This document shows, piece after piece, positions 5,428-61,623 of a stretch of 64,000 bases of DNA (the stretch's first letter is position 1; each line of letters begins with the position of its first letter). The notes beneath the pieces are model-generated. The model was given only the letters and a program-made list of their open reading frames with translations. It ran no database searches and was not told the origin of the DNA. The stretch covers positions 1 through 64,000 of the forward strand of contig JALOKU010000009.1 in assembly GCA_025456345.1 (NCBI GenBank), read 5' to 3'. A program made the position numbers and the translations under genes. This DNA comes from Vicinamibacterales bacterium (GTDB lineage Bacteria; Acidobacteriota; Vicinamibacteria; Vicinamibacterales; JAKQTR01).

Positions 5428-6039
5428 TCAGCCCTGGAGCGCCTCGTGGACCTTGCCCACGAGGTTCGCGCCCGGGAGCAGCGTTTTGTCGCCCTCGTCC
5501 TTCCACTTCGACGGGCAGGCCTCGGTGGTCTTTCGCGACAGGTAGAGGTTGGCCTTGAACTTCCGCAGCAGCTCGTCGATGTTGCGGCCCAGGTTGTAGA
5601 AGTTCATCTCGGTCCCGAGCAGGGTGCCCTCGGGATTGATGATGTAGGTCCCTCGCAGCGCCAGGCCGGACCCCTCGTCGAGCACGCCGAACATGCGGCT
5701 GAGCGCGCCGGTGGCGTCGGAGCCCATCGGGTACGCGACCTTCGAGAGTTCCTTCTCGTGCTCGCGCCACGCGAGGTGCACGAACTTGGTGTCGGTGCTG
5801 ACCGTGACGACGTCACACCCCATCTTGACGAACCGGTCGTTCTGCTCTGCCAGAGCAGCGAACTCGGTCGCTCACACGAACGTGAAATCGGCCGGATAGA
5901 AGAACAGGATCGTCCAGCGCTTCTTCGCGATCTGCGACGCCAGCGAAAACGTGCCGAAGTCGCCTTTCGCCGGTTCGTAGGTCTCGAGTTCGAAGTCGGG
6001 GACCCGCTGCCCCAGTTTCAACGGCGTGCAGTCAGACAC
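5428..6039 (-). CDS. prxU: selenocysteine-containing peroxiredoxin (TGA = Sec56), AhpC/TSA family
   Basis: The track shows only the last 131 codons (from 5823). Reading upstream in the same frame gives a normal 2-Cys peroxiredoxin N-terminus back to a GTG at 6039 with AGGAGG five bases before it, interrupted by one TGA (5872-5874). That codon falls exactly at the peroxidatic cysteine: FYPADFTFV-[TGA]-ATEF, where relatives have FTFVCPTE. The full protein is 203 residues, a normal family length, with Sec56 and a resolving Cys175 in EACPSKW, so it should reduce peroxides as a typical 2-Cys enzyme. A perfect hairpin lies 13 bases after TGA (see SECIS entry). Selenoprotein PrxU is a known family; that this gene is one is read from sequence. 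No sel genes are in the window. Confidence 0.9.
5842..5858 (-). promoter_or_regulatory. bacterial SECIS-like hairpin of the peroxiredoxin gene
   Basis: On the coding strand, 13 bases after the in-frame TGA, CTGCTCT-GGC-AGAGCAG forms a perfect 7-bp stem with a loop beginning with G (or 6 bp with loop TGGCA). Bacterial SECIS elements sit immediately downstream of the UGA inside the coding region, with a small apical loop carrying an early G about 16-37 bases away; this fits. Confidence 0.8.
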
Positions 6040-6076
6040 GTACGCCTCCTCAAACGATCGATGGCTCCCGAAATGC

Positions 6077-54473: not shown

Positions 54474-54899
54474 ATGAAGGAATCGCGGTACGGCATGGGC
54501 GTCGACGTGGCGCTGCCCTACGAGCAGGCGGTGGAGCGCGCGACTGAGGAGTTGAAGAAAGAGGGATTCGGCATCCTGACCACCATCGACGTCCAGCAGA
54601 CGCTCAAGCAGAAGCTCGACAAGGACTTCCGCAAGTACACGATTCTCGGGGCCTGCAATCCGCCGCTGGCCCACCGGGCGTTCGAGGCCGAACTCGAAAT
54701 CGGCCTGCTGCTCCCCTGCAACGTCGTCGTCTACGAAACGGAACCCGGGCGGAGCGTGGTGTCGGCGATGGCCCCGATTGCCGCCATGGGCGTGGTCGGC
54801 GGCAACCCTGCCCTCAAGGACGTGGCGCGGGAAGCCGACGAGAAGCTGCGGCGAGCCCTGAAGGCCATCGAGGCCGTCGGCGCCGCGGAGAGGTCCTAG
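54474..54899 (+). CDS. DUF302 domain protein
   Basis: 141 residues: YGMGVDVALPYEQAVERATEELKKEGFGILTTIDVQQTLKQKL, then YTILGACNPPLAHRAFEAELEIGLLLPCNVVVYE, the full DUF302 pattern with the conserved GACNP and LPCNV cysteine segments. The family is small, cytoplasmic and often linked to sulfur or redox genes. It is followed after two bases by the small selenoprotein candidate. Confidence 0.93.
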   Translation: MKESRYGMGVDVALPYEQAVERATEELKKEGFGILTTIDVQQTLKQKLDKDFRKYTILGACNPPLAHRAFEAELEIGLLLPCNVVVYETEPGRSVVSAMAPIAAMGVVGGNPALKDVAREADEKLRRALKAIEAVGAAERS

Positions 54900-54901
54900 C
54901 C

Positions 54902-55060
54902 GTGGACTACCTCATCCCCGTCGCGATCCTGGCGGTATGGGTCGTGCTGAATGCGTGGGTGCTGCCCAGGCTCGGCGTCCCGACTTGAATGAGCGGCGCG
55001 TGCGACGTCGAGTCTCGACGTCCAGACGAGAAGCGCGAACGGGAACGGGAGCAGGCGTGA
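54902..55060 (+). CDS. small membrane selenoprotein candidate (TGA = Sec29)
   Basis: Too short for the track. A GTG two bases after the DUF302 stop, with GGAGAGG eight bases upstream, opens a frame giving one membrane helix (IPVAILAVWVVLNAWVLP) followed by RLGVPT, then TGA (54986-54988). Read as Sec, translation goes on with MSGACDVESRR and a charged tail to TGA at 55058: 52 residues with Sec29 and Cys34 in U-x4-C. From memory, short membrane proteins with a Cys in this place (VPTCMSG.C) exist, which would make the TGA an equivalent of that Cys; this needs a search. A perfect hairpin follows at 15 bases. If the TGA is a stop, a 28-residue helix remains. Confidence 0.72.
55004..55022 (+). promoter_or_regulatory. 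bacterial SECIS-like hairpin of the small selenoprotein
   Basis: Fifteen bases after the TGA, GACGTCGA-GTC-TCGACGTC makes a perfect 8-bp stem with loop GTC (or 7 bp with loop AGTCT). The position and the GU at the tip agree with the bacterial SECIS rule and resemble the E. coli fdhF loop, which also has GU. Confidence 0.72.
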
Positions 55061-57938: not shown

Positions 57939-60389
57939 TCAGATTCGGGGTGGCCCGGCACCCGATTCGGCCAGCCCCCGGAAACCCGTGCCGCGTACGA
58001 AGAACGGGCCGGCCGCCCCCGTGGAGCGGCCGGCCCGGCGTGCGATCGAGGTGACGGGCGCCAAGAACGTGTAGAGCAGGCGCGCGGCGAACGTGCTGCC
58101 GTTGTACGGCCGGTTGCCGTACCCGGTTGTCAGGCCGCCCAGGTAGTCGATCCTCGGCTGATCGGTGCCCGGGAGGTTGATGGTCGCGAAATCGCTGATG
58201 CTGAGCTTCTCGTAGAAATACCCGATCGCGAAGCCGACTTTCGCGTTGAACGAGTACTTCAGGTCAATCATGAACTGCTGCCAGTCGTTGGTCACGTCCG
58301 GCAGCTGCTCGAACGTCCGGAAGCCGTTCGCGTCGATCGTGTTGAACAGGGTCACGGTGCGCGGCCCGCCCAGCACGAAGGCGTTGTCCGAGTCGCTGTA
58401 GTTGTACGCGAACCGGATGCCCGTGTTCTTGAACATGTTGAGCAGGTCGACGTAGACGTCGACGTTGTTGACCTTCTCGTCGTTGTCGAGCGTCCAGTCG
58501 CGGTTCGGGTCCGTCCAGGACGGATCCGGCGGCGGGTTGGCGTTGCGCGCCCGCTGGTAGGTACTGAAGTCGTCGCGGCCGTAGTTGACGCCCATCGCGA
58601 CGTGGTCGCTCGGCGTGTAGTTGACGCCGACGTTGTACGCCGTATTGGTCACGTCGAACAACCCGAACTCCATGCCCGGGCCGCCGTAGTGGTCGTCGGT
58701 GTACGTGACCGACGCCGTGAAGTCCATCGTCTGGAACGGCGTCAGGGTCACCATGGCGTTGAAGCGGTTCCGCTCGCGGTCCGCTTCGTCGTAGAAACGC
58801 AGCCCGGGCTGCGCCGCCGCGTCCTCGACGGCCTGCTCGGAAAAGCCGAAGCCCGTGCGGTCGATGTACTCGTACCCCACGCGCACCGACAGCCACGCCG
58901 TGCCGACGGTGTCCCAGGTCAGCCGCATGCCCTGATCCCGCATGTCGTTGTGCGTCCGGCCCGTGCGGTCGTAGTTGTCGTAGAGGTAGCCGACGCGCAG
59001 GGTCGAGTAGGCCAGCGGGGAGAACGACACCGACGCGTCGAAGGTGTCACGGATGACGCTGTGGCCTTCGGCGAACTCTCCAGGGGTCTCCTCGGACACC
59101 GCGTCGAATCGCACGTTCTCGTCGTACGGGAACGGCCGCGAGATGTTCGAATGGGTGTTGTGGCGGTATTTCGCGTTGACGCCCATCCAGCGCACCGGGC
59201 GCGACGTGAAGTTGACGAGCGCGTTGACGCCGCGCACCTTCGCCTCGGCGGTCGGCCTCGGGAGTGCGGCGAGGTGCGGGAACAGCGCCCACACGCTCGG
59301 CTGGTTGATCTGCGCGTTGCTCGTCCAGGGGATCAGATCGTCGTCGTTGCTCTGGTCGCTGACCTGGACGGTCCCGTTCAGCGTCGTGGTGCGGTTGAAC
59401 TTGTACAACCCCATGAAGCTGACGACCGTCATGGAATTGTCCGGGAACGAGGAGATCCGGCCGCGGGCCGCGCCGTTGCCGTTGCTGTAGCCGTTGGCGT
59501 CGTACGGGCCGCTCGGCGGCTGCAGGCCGTTGTTGTAGTCGGTGAGGTTCAGCGGGTTGTCCCACAGCACGTCGTTGAACTGGTTCGAGAACATCGAGCG
59601 CTCGAACGCGGCCCGGAACATGCCCTGCGGCCGCACCCACTCGACGGCGGCGCCGAAGTCGTTGGTGCGGTTGTCGAGCTGCACCGGCAGCTCGTTCGCG
59701 TTGCTGAACGCGTGAGACATGCCGAACGGCTGGTAGCCCGACTTCTTGGTGCTCGTGAAGTCGACCGACAGCGCGACGTCGTTCGTCATGTCGTAGCCGA
59801 ACTTGACGCCGGTCGTATCGCGGCGCGACTGCATCTCGAAGGTCTGCGCCTGGGCTCGGTAGACCGAGGTCAGCTGGTTCTGCAGGTAGTTCGTGGGAAT
59901 GGCCACAAACCCCGGAGGCAGCGGAGTCACCGGAGCCGGGTAGCGGCTCTTCTGCACCTGGTTCTGGACGGCATCGTCGAGCACCCAGGAGTTCGCCGAC
60001 GCCTCGCGCCACGGCGTGAGGCAGTTGTAGCAGTAGTTCAGCGGGATCGAGTCGTACAGGAACGAGAACCTGAACTTGCTGTTCTGGTAGTCGACCGCGT
60101 ACTGCTGGTCGCGGTAGCCGATGTTCTTCGCCGTCACGTCGAGCAGATAGCCGTCGGTCTGTTTCCCGAACACGCAATTGGTGAACAACCCGCTTCGCAG
60201 GTCGCGGTACCGCTCGAAGCGGGCCTCGTCACCATTCGCGTCCGTGACGCGGACCCCGACGTCCGCCATGCCGGTCACGCCCCAGGGGGCGTTGCCCGAA
60301 GTCGCCTCGGCGGGCTTCGTCTGCGCCTTCGCGTGGATCGCGGAGGCGAGCAGAAGCGCCGCAGTCACCGTCACTACTCTGTTGCGCAT
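57939..60389 (-). CDS. MtrB/PioB/DmsF-family outer-membrane beta-barrel
   Basis: About 816 residues with a signal peptide (VTVTAALLLASAIHAKAQ) and a body of alternating strands with aromatic girdles typical of large porins. An early CYNC (CxxC, near residue 110) matches the conserved N-terminal pair of MtrB. The preferred start, 60389, has GAGGAGG six bases upstream. Next to the decahaem gene, it should sheath the cytochrome across the outer membrane. Confidence 0.9.
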   Translation of the reverse strand: MRNRVVTVTAALLLASAIHAKAQTKPAEATSGNAPWGVTGMADVGVRVTDANGDEARFERYRDLRSGLFTNCVFGKQTDGYLLDVTAKNIGYRDQQYAVDYQNSKFRFSFLYDSIPLNYCYNCLTPWREASANSWVLDDAVQNQVQKSRYPAPVTPLPPGFVAIPTNYLQNQLTSVYRAQAQTFEMQSRRDTTGVKFGYDMTNDVALSVDFTSTKKSGYQPFGMSHAFSNANELPVQLDNRTNDFGAAVEWVRPQGMFRAAFERSMFSNQFNDVLWDNPLNLTDYNNGLQPPSGPYDANGYSNGNGAARGRISSFPDNSMTVVSFMGLYKFNRTTTLNGTVQVSDQSNDDDLIPWTSNAQINQPSVWALFPHLAALPRPTAEAKVRGVNALVNFTSRPVRWMGVNAKYRHNTHSNISRPFPYDENVRFDAVSEETPGEFAEGHSVIRDTFDASVSFSPLAYSTLRVGYLYDNYDRTGRTHNDMRDQGMRLTWDTVGTAWLSVRVGYEYIDRTGFGFSEQAVEDAAAQPGLRFYDEADRERNRFNAMVTLTPFQTMDFTASVTYTDDHYGGPGMEFGLFDVTNTAYNVGVNYTPSDHVAMGVNYGRDDFSTYQRARNANPPPDPSWTDPNRDWTLDNDEKVNNVDVYVDLLNMFKNTGIRFAYNYSDSDNAFVLGGPRTVTLFNTIDANGFRTFEQLPDVTNDWQQFMIDLKYSFNAKVGFAIGYFYEKLSISDFATINLPGTDQPRIDYLGGLTTGYGNRPYNGSTFAARLLYTFLAPVTSIARRAGRSTGAAGPFFVRGTGFRGLAESGAGPPRI

Positions 60390-60404
60390 CGCAATCCTCC
60401 TCAA

Positions 60405-61360
60405 TTAGCGCAGGAAGGCCTTGCCGTTCGGAGAGTTGGAGCCGTGCACCATCTGGTGGCACACGACGCAGGAACGGCCGTAGATCCTGTTGGCGTTCTG
60501 CGAGTTCTTCAGCAGGTAGCCATCGTAAATCGTCGGGGGGTGCCGCGACGTCACGTGGCAGCGCTGGCAGAGGTAGGGCTGCTTGGCGACGAGCATCCGG
60601 TCGTTGTTCGAGCCGTGCGGGTCGTGGTGGTGGCGCAGCTGTCGGCCACCGGCGCGTGCTCCCACATGTACGGGCCGCGCTTCTCGGCGTGGCAGCTCGT
60701 GCAGCTCTCGTCAATCGTCGTGCCCGTCTTGAGCAGTCTCTGGTTCGAGCTGCCGTGCACGTTGTGGCACGACGCGCACGTCATCTTGCCTTCGCGCACC
60801 GGCATGTGGTTGAACCGGTTCTGCTTGTTCACGACGGCCCGGTGGCAGGACGCGCAGAGCGCAGACTGGTCCTTCGCCTTCAGCAGTCCGGCATCGCTCT
60901 TCGGCGAGTGGATGCTGTGGCAGCTCATGCAGCCGACGTTCCGGTTGTCGTGCTGGCTGCCGGCCCAGAGGGCGTGGGATTTGCGGTCGTGGCAGCTCGT
61001 GCACAGCGCGCTCGCGTCCTGCGCCGACAGCTTCGAGATCTGCGTGATTTTCGTTTTGTCGCCGCCGGCCTCGGCGTGGGCCTTCCCCGCGCCGTGGCAG
61101 CTCTCGCAACCCATCGTCGCGTTGGGGGTCTTCGGGTTGAACGCGCGGGCGTGCGCGCCGGCCTTGGTGACGGCGCTCTGGCCTTCGTGACAGCCCAGGC
61201 ACGTGTCCTGACCGGCGTAGTCGGCGGCGGTGGCCACCGGGGCCTTGGCCGCCGCCGGCTTCTGCGTCGCCGCCGATGCCGTCCCCACGGACGCGAGCCA
61301 GGCGGCCACCAGGCCGGCCAGCGCTACCCCTCGGATGAGGGTCCTGCAAACAGAATGCAT
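60405..61360 (-). pseudogene. decahaem c-type cytochrome (MtrA/DmsE-like), frameshifted
   Basis: The gene is split in the track into 60551-61507 and 60405-60665. Joined, it is a periplasmic decahaem cytochrome with a signal peptide (start ATG 61360, AAGGAG upstream). Seven intact CXXCH motifs lie in the first frame (CLGCH, CESCH, CTSCH, CMSCH, CASCH, CASCH, CTSCH) and two in the second (CQRCH, CVVCH). Motif 8 should be CATCHDPHG, but the DNA near 60622-60636 is one base short of it, shifting the frame. The joined length is 956 bases; one more gives 957, a whole number of codons. It may be a sequencing error or a real lesion. Confidence 0.85.
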
Positions 61361-61623
61361 GGCGTGCTCCTTGAGTAGAATCCAGCAGGATCCGGCCAAA
61401 GGACCGAATCCGCCGATTCGAGTGCAGACAGAATGCCCGTTCACGCCCGGAGAACTACCACACACCTCCCGAATGAACAGTCGGGCTGTTTGCTGGTCAA
61501 TCGTCAACTAAATCGACGCATTCGCAGATAACCGTCGGTTGACGACAGATATTGCCGGAAAACCGACAGGCTCAGGCAGTATCCAATCCAACCGATTGGA
61601 TTATTGCCCTGTCGTGAATTGCA
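61361..61623. other. intergenic region upstream of the decahaem gene
   Basis: About 260 bases between the decahaem gene and the six-haem gene. It holds AAGGAG (the ribosome site), several copies of CCGA/TTGAC-like words and the AATCCAA palindrome near 61585. No gene is supported. Confidence 0.5.
61585..61602. repeat. AATCCAA palindrome upstream of the decahaem gene
   Basis: AATCCAA-CCGA-TTGGATT is a perfect 7-4-7 inverted repeat, overlapped by a second register (CCAATC / GATTGG). It shares the 8-mer GATTGGAT with the feoB operator candidate. Confidence 0.5.

Follow-up and report, generated by a model that had tools for sequence, protein, structure and literature searches.

Prokaryotic selenoproteins have been catalogued in 119 families and subfamilies (PMC13188914; NCBIfam 20.0, June 2026), and the gene described here has in common with them an in-frame UGA with a downstream SECIS element, orthologues carrying cysteine (Cys), and occurrence in genomes that decode selenocysteine (Sec). 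None of the 119 families fits it, however, as none is a single-pass membrane protein of approx. 50 residues with a U-x4-C motif. In layout, the closest described proteins are the eukaryotic SELENOK and SELENOS, which are small and possess one N-terminal transmembrane (TM) helix and a cytoplasmic C-terminal tail with Sec (PMC10650576). Small size, an N-terminal TM helix and a cytoplasmic Sec tail are also predicted here, but Sec lies 2-3 residues from the C-terminus in SELENOK/SELENOS and 23-25 residues from it, adjacent to the membrane, in the bacterial family (Sec29 of 52 in the protein studied). Moreover, the protein is bacterial and lacks the Gly-rich segment; no resemblance to SELENOK/SELENOS was seen, and they are likened by layout only. 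Two further proteins are relevant as neighbours. The YgaP-like membrane rhodanese (PF00581 plus PF11127), often encoded by an adjacent gene, would share membrane-tethered sulfur chemistry with the selenoprotein, yet the two are not homologous, the selenoprotein being a one-helix protein that lacks a rhodanese domain. DUF302 (PF03625) is a separate protein, encoded immediately upstream in the window (the whole 64,000-nucleotide stretch of DNA that was analysed) and in a same-family genome; it has been reported in sox clusters, where its role is unknown (PMC5037610).

The window is part of a 5.07-Mb metagenome-assembled genome (MAG; G000) of 253 contigs that is 90.8% complete and, judging from its relatives, belongs to the Acidobacteriota. 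A sequence-only reading had proposed that a GTG-started frame, beginning two bases after a DUF302 gene, reaches a TGA at GVPT-TGA-MSGAC and is read through it, and direct checking of the sequence confirmed this arrangement. The features of the locus are as follows.

54474 to 54899, plus strand: DUF302 (PF03625) gene, Pfam E=1.1e-26, the only copy in its genome
54887 to 54893, plus strand: Shine-Dalgarno-like GGAGAGG, 8 nt 5' of the GTG and within the end of the DUF302 gene, from direct reading
54902 to 55060, plus strand: selenoprotein gene that begins with GTG, has TGA (Sec) for codon 29 and ends in TGA, encoding one predicted TM helix, U-x4-C and a charged tail, from translation and homologues
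54986 to 54988, plus strand: TGA read as selenocysteine, with Cys in homologues L001, L003, L005, L006 and L081 and TGA in 81 collected members
55001 to 55003, plus strand: Cys34 codon TGC (U+5), putative resolving thiol, encoded by TGC or TGT in 63 of 81 TGA members
55004 to 55022, plus strand: SECIS-like hairpin with an 8-bp stem and an apical loop GUC from 23 nt past the UGA, encoding DVESRR

The coding frame runs from 54902 to 55057 (+) through the TGA at 54986-54988, and the TGA at 55058-55060 is its terminator. Its translation, VDYLIPVAILAVWVVLNAWVLPRLGVPTUMSGACDVESRRPDEKREREREQA, has 52 residues and bears the U-x4-C and charged tail that had been anticipated from read-through. With approx. 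52 residues in total and the UGA near codon 29, both flanking parts are too short for the usual ORF callers. The DUF302 stop codon (TAG, 54897-54899) is separated by 2 bases from the GTG at 54902, the order of the two genes is repeated in a same-family genome (locus L059), and they are probably co-transcribed; the Shine-Dalgarno-like sequence overlaps the 3' end of the DUF302 gene, which suggests that translation of the selenoprotein gene is coupled to that of DUF302. Taken together with the evidence below, the gene very probably encodes a single-pass membrane selenoprotein of 52 residues, and the reading of this locus as a selenoprotein gene is supported as essentially right.

An initial contig scan gave eight relatives, four with TGA and four with Cys at the site. 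In a sample of 396 Acidobacteriota genomes, a first profile search found the family in 93, and an improved 55-member profile matched 96, 93 of them strongly (E<=1e-6). Of the strong matches, 92 carry TGA in frame at this residue, and G187 alone has Cys; nearly all TGA-form matches span exactly one in-frame TGA, located at the Sec site. Homologues with Cys at this position occur in Planctomycetota, Myxococcota and that one Acidobacteriota genome. Members collected in full comprise 81 TGA and 5 Cys forms, i.e., 86 loci that are not phylogenetically independent, with a median length of 56 residues, Sec near residue 30 and a tail of approx. 25 residues (median 25). The Cys homologues that the sequence-only reading had named as support for itself exist, and the lack of homologues beyond the TGA that it had named as evidence against itself is not observed: they continue past the site, with Cys or TGA there. 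P22, G25, T28 and U/C29 are invariant in the 55-member alignment, and the family is defined by the motif LPxxG[VIFY]xT-[U/C]. A Cys is found at U+5 in 63 of the 81 TGA members and at U+6 in 5, whereas 13 have none within eight residues. The U+5 codon is TGC or TGT in all 63 class A members, varying at the third base only, and such purely synonymous variation indicates protein-level selection past the TGA. A genome-wide reassignment of TGA to a different amino acid was rejected as extremely improbable because TGA also acts as the terminator within the same family, both of the window gene itself and of many other members; the in-frame TGA is all that would favour reassignment, the aligned residue is Cys, and the genome contains a Sec pathway.

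Most of the 13 form a Cys-less subgroup whose members (L119, L121, L123, L125-L127 and L129-L132) continue after Sec with A-V-P-x-P or similar, and their hairpin loop is often closer to the UGA (17-20 nt). A group that matched only profile positions 2-30 and seemed to consist of stop-free, truncated or Cys forms proved to have TGA followed by A-V-P-x-P (U-A-V-P-x-P), with Cys lacking nearby. One match (G059/L136, E=4e-4) was judged spurious, and a tblastn search of plasmids gave no match to the family.

The hairpin is formed by the arms GACGTCGA (55004-55011) and TCGACGTC (55015-55022), which make 8 perfect pairs around the loop GTC (55012-55014), 15 nt past the TGA, precisely as described in the sequence-only reading. 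Bacterial SECIS elements are modelled as a 4-16 bp stem with a 3-9 nt loop, G within the first two loop positions, a distance of 16-37 nt from the UGA and a minimum free energy of at most -7.5 (PMC13188914); with 8 bp, the loop GUC, 23 nt and -13.2 kcal/mol, the hairpin agrees with this model. Synonymous recoding of the peptide yields so long a stem in just 0.8% of cases (p=0.008). When this synonymous-codon null is extended to the family, the combined p is 2e-32 for the 81 TGA forms and 0.98 for the 5 Cys forms, in which no hairpin beyond chance was found. Most TGA members possess a hairpin of 6-9 bp, with a G-initial loop (GUC, GGA, GGUC or similar) approx. 23 nt past the UGA; weak or shifted hairpins occur in a few TGA forms (L084, L107), of which the majority come from AT-rich genomes or belong to the Cys-less class. 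A plain folding-energy z-score was discarded as a test of the hairpin, since it was about 0 and is uninformative in GC-rich DNA, and the synonymous-codon and covariation tests were used instead.

Covariation, which the sequence-only reading had singled out as the check on a SECIS, is present. Across 68 TGA members taken without selection, the register of the window hairpin is paired in 388 of 544 cells, compared with a shuffle mean of 297 (sd 7.8, maximum 320). Among 30 members selected for their use of the 3-nt-loop register, pairing is found in 92.9% of cells, a percentage favourably biased by this choice; double changes are seen at all 8 pairs, with 47 double-compensated cells vs. 12.1 after shuffling, and the covariation score is 0.62 vs. 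0.22, a value reached by 0 of 500 shuffles. RNAalifold independently recovers the same stem, in which 7 of 7 pairs covary. The peptide encoded by the hairpin differs among TGA members (DVESRR, DLGSRD, SVEDRR, RPAERG). Because DVESRR occurs in TGA forms and is absent from Cys forms, it is better taken for a by-product of the SECIS in the coding sequence than for a motif of the protein.

A lack of selenocysteine genes had likewise been named as evidence against a selenoprotein, but the genome carries selA (527 bits), selB (336 bits) and a selD whose product itself contains Sec, in VSCSGUASK (UxxK motif; L023, G000:C60:11345-12277). In this 90.8%-complete MAG, tRNA-Sec was not found with an Rfam model, a pattern or the sequence of a relative; it is present in the same-family genome G245. 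Across the 396 genomes, selA occurs in 86 of 92 genomes with the TGA form vs. 164 of 304 others (p=7e-14). Five of the six TGA-form genomes without selA carry tRNA-Sec at approx. 69 bits or more, and therefore the missing selA in these five is probably a MAG gap. The Acidobacteriota Cys form of G187 is accompanied by neither selA nor tRNA-Sec and is a natural pairing of the Cys form with the missing Sec trait. The one exception is a TGA form without nearby Cys (L127) in the 97%-complete genome G373, where neither selA nor a convincing tRNA-Sec was found.

It could be argued that the TGA is an ordinary stop, in which case the locus would encode a membrane peptide of 28 residues, the frame beyond it would be open by chance, and the hairpin would be some other mRNA element. 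The standard code, the poor conservation of the tail past the hairpin and the G373 TGA form without detectable Sec machinery are compatible with this. Such a stop is very improbable, however, given that Cys homologues extend beyond the site, that the U+5 codon varies synonymously only, that the TGA form co-occurs with selA, and that a hairpin at SECIS spacing covaries and is missing in Cys forms.

A second in-frame TGA in the window lies at 5872-5874, within a peroxiredoxin gene (AhpC/TSA, E=2e-34) at 5431-6075 (-), in the motif PxxxTxxU (PADFTFV-U-ATE), and is followed approx. 20 nt downstream by a 7-bp hairpin with the loop GGC. This peroxiredoxin is a known kind of selenoprotein, counts with the Sec genes of this genome in favour of the selenoprotein reading, and is probably the first selenoprotein candidate of the sequence-only reading.

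The reading frame, the exchange of Cys and Sec, the covariation of the hairpin, the Sec machinery and the neighbourhood were computed here; topology, partners and chemistry we infer. The membrane helix proposed earlier is predicted at residues 4-23, the only helix of an AlphaFold model with a mean pLDDT of 77, in which the tail has pLDDT in the 60s and carries no fold information. A PDB search gave only chance TM matches. The N-terminus is negative in 62 of 86 members and positive in 2, and the segment before U is positive in 80; negative charge ahead of the helix and positive charge behind it predict an N-out/C-in orientation. Thus, Sec is predicted to lie at the cytoplasmic face of the membrane, in a short flexible tail. 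In the proposed mechanism, SelB and Sec-tRNA would decode the UGA at 54986 as Sec under the direction of the hairpin at 55004-55022, and the identical UGA at 55058 would terminate translation. The Cys five residues after Sec in most members might form a Se-S bond as a resolving thiol; its absence in 13 of 81 TGA members suggests that Sec is the essential group. The membrane-tethered selenol might accept or reduce sulfane sulfur (persulfide) or a disulfide, and might pass sulfur to or from neighbours such as the YgaP-like membrane rhodanese, an MBL-rhodanese, DUF302 and the TauE/SafE exporter.

These partners are suggested by the gene neighbourhood, which was analysed within 4 kb of the 86 loci using neighbour profiles built here. 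DUF302 is found at 20 loci, a YgaP-like TM domain at 34 (including rhodanese fusions), TauE at 7 and an MBL domain at 14; a rhodanese profile matches at 41, a raw count that partly overlaps the YgaP-TM fusions. An earlier count of "rhodanese" neighbours had merged three families (rhodanese, YgaP-TM and a protein of approx. 100 residues beside RND genes) and was replaced by the separate counts. Rhodanese, YgaP-TM, DUF302, TauE or persulfide-dioxygenase-like genes lie within this range at 50 of 86 loci, adjacent and on the same strand at 40, and none of them at the remaining 36. According to Pfam, the immediate upstream genes (n=70) include 11 for rhodanese, 6 for DUF302, 4 for TauE and 4 for ArsR, and 9 of 56 immediate downstream genes encode DUF302. 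The expectation that the family always follows DUF302 does not hold: DUF302 is within range at just 20 of the 86 loci, and approx. 16-17 of these have it adjacent on the same strand, either upstream or downstream. Eight genomes checked have 0-2 copies of DUF302, with a single copy adjoining the selenoprotein gene in G000, G245 and G283, and DUF302 is missing from some selenoprotein-bearing genomes. At the window locus, DUF302 is present and no rhodanese, YgaP-TM or TauE gene is nearby. With rhodaneses, YgaP-TM, persulfide-dioxygenase-like proteins and a sulfite exporter for neighbours, a selenol at the inner membrane face may well accept, transfer or reduce sulfane sulfur. On the basis of this neighbourhood, a function in sulfane-sulfur/thiol handling as a cytosol-facing, membrane-tethered selenol is put forward tentatively, as a proposal with nearly even prospects.

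A selenoprotein of this kind might instead be a general thiol/peroxide reductant or a redox sensor at the membrane, outside sulfur trafficking. U-x4-C does look like a redox pair, oxidoreductases make up the majority of selenoproteins (PMC13188914), and thioredoxin, OsmC and peroxide-related genes lie near some members; however, sulfur-handling genes, found at 50 of 86 loci, outnumber other neighbours, the 13 members without a nearby Cys have no such pair, and no thioredoxin-like fold is predicted in the AlphaFold model, which makes a general reductant rather unlikely. That the selenol binds soft metals or metalloids as an accessory of RND-type efflux is a still fainter prospect: RND transporter genes are located upstream on the same strand at 12 of 86 loci and ArsR-type regulators precede 4 members, but these are a minority of loci, no neighbours with metal-binding domains were counted, and some ArsR-type regulators also sense sulfane sulfur (PMC12423496).

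Other genes were noted in passing. A protein of approx. 100 residues (MK[EQ]xx...) is encoded directly upstream in L084, L086, L088, L107, L108 and L109, near RND genes in several; the two copies tested have no Pfam match, and we presume a P-II-like look. In the window, a gene at 60405-61507 (-), which we take from its sequence to be a multiheme cytochrome, is apparently broken into two ORFs (60551-61507 and 60405-60665) by a frameshift near 60660, and the adjoining 57939-60404 is presumably, again by reading, a possible MtrB/PioB-like beta-barrel gene.

The selenoprotein family is apparently undescribed. No Pfam or NCBIfam model matches it (the best NCBIfam hit, a model of an ATP synthase subunit at E 0.024, is not credible), and no description was found in a literature search covering mainly open-access journal papers. 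The single Acidobacteriota genome on which deep-Sep was tried is reported to have yielded no new selenoprotein. More tentatively than the general function, this widespread family may be seen as a selenol carrier, anchored in the membrane, that handles sulfane sulfur (possibly selenium) together with TauE, DUF302, persulfide-dioxygenase-like proteins and the YgaP-like rhodanese, which would make it a counterpart of SELENOK/SELENOS in layout with a new role for Sec. The family, which occurs in approx. a quarter of the Acidobacteriota genomes sampled (92 of 396) and is unlisted in the catalogues checked, adds a type of bacterial selenoprotein that has no globular domain and offers a handle on the neighbouring sulfur genes DUF302 and YgaP-TM, whose roles are poorly known. 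With a second in-frame UGA serving as terminator in the same gene, it also provides a compact model for how a SECIS separates Sec from stop. Finally, these findings suggest that selenium use in Acidobacteriota has been underestimated.
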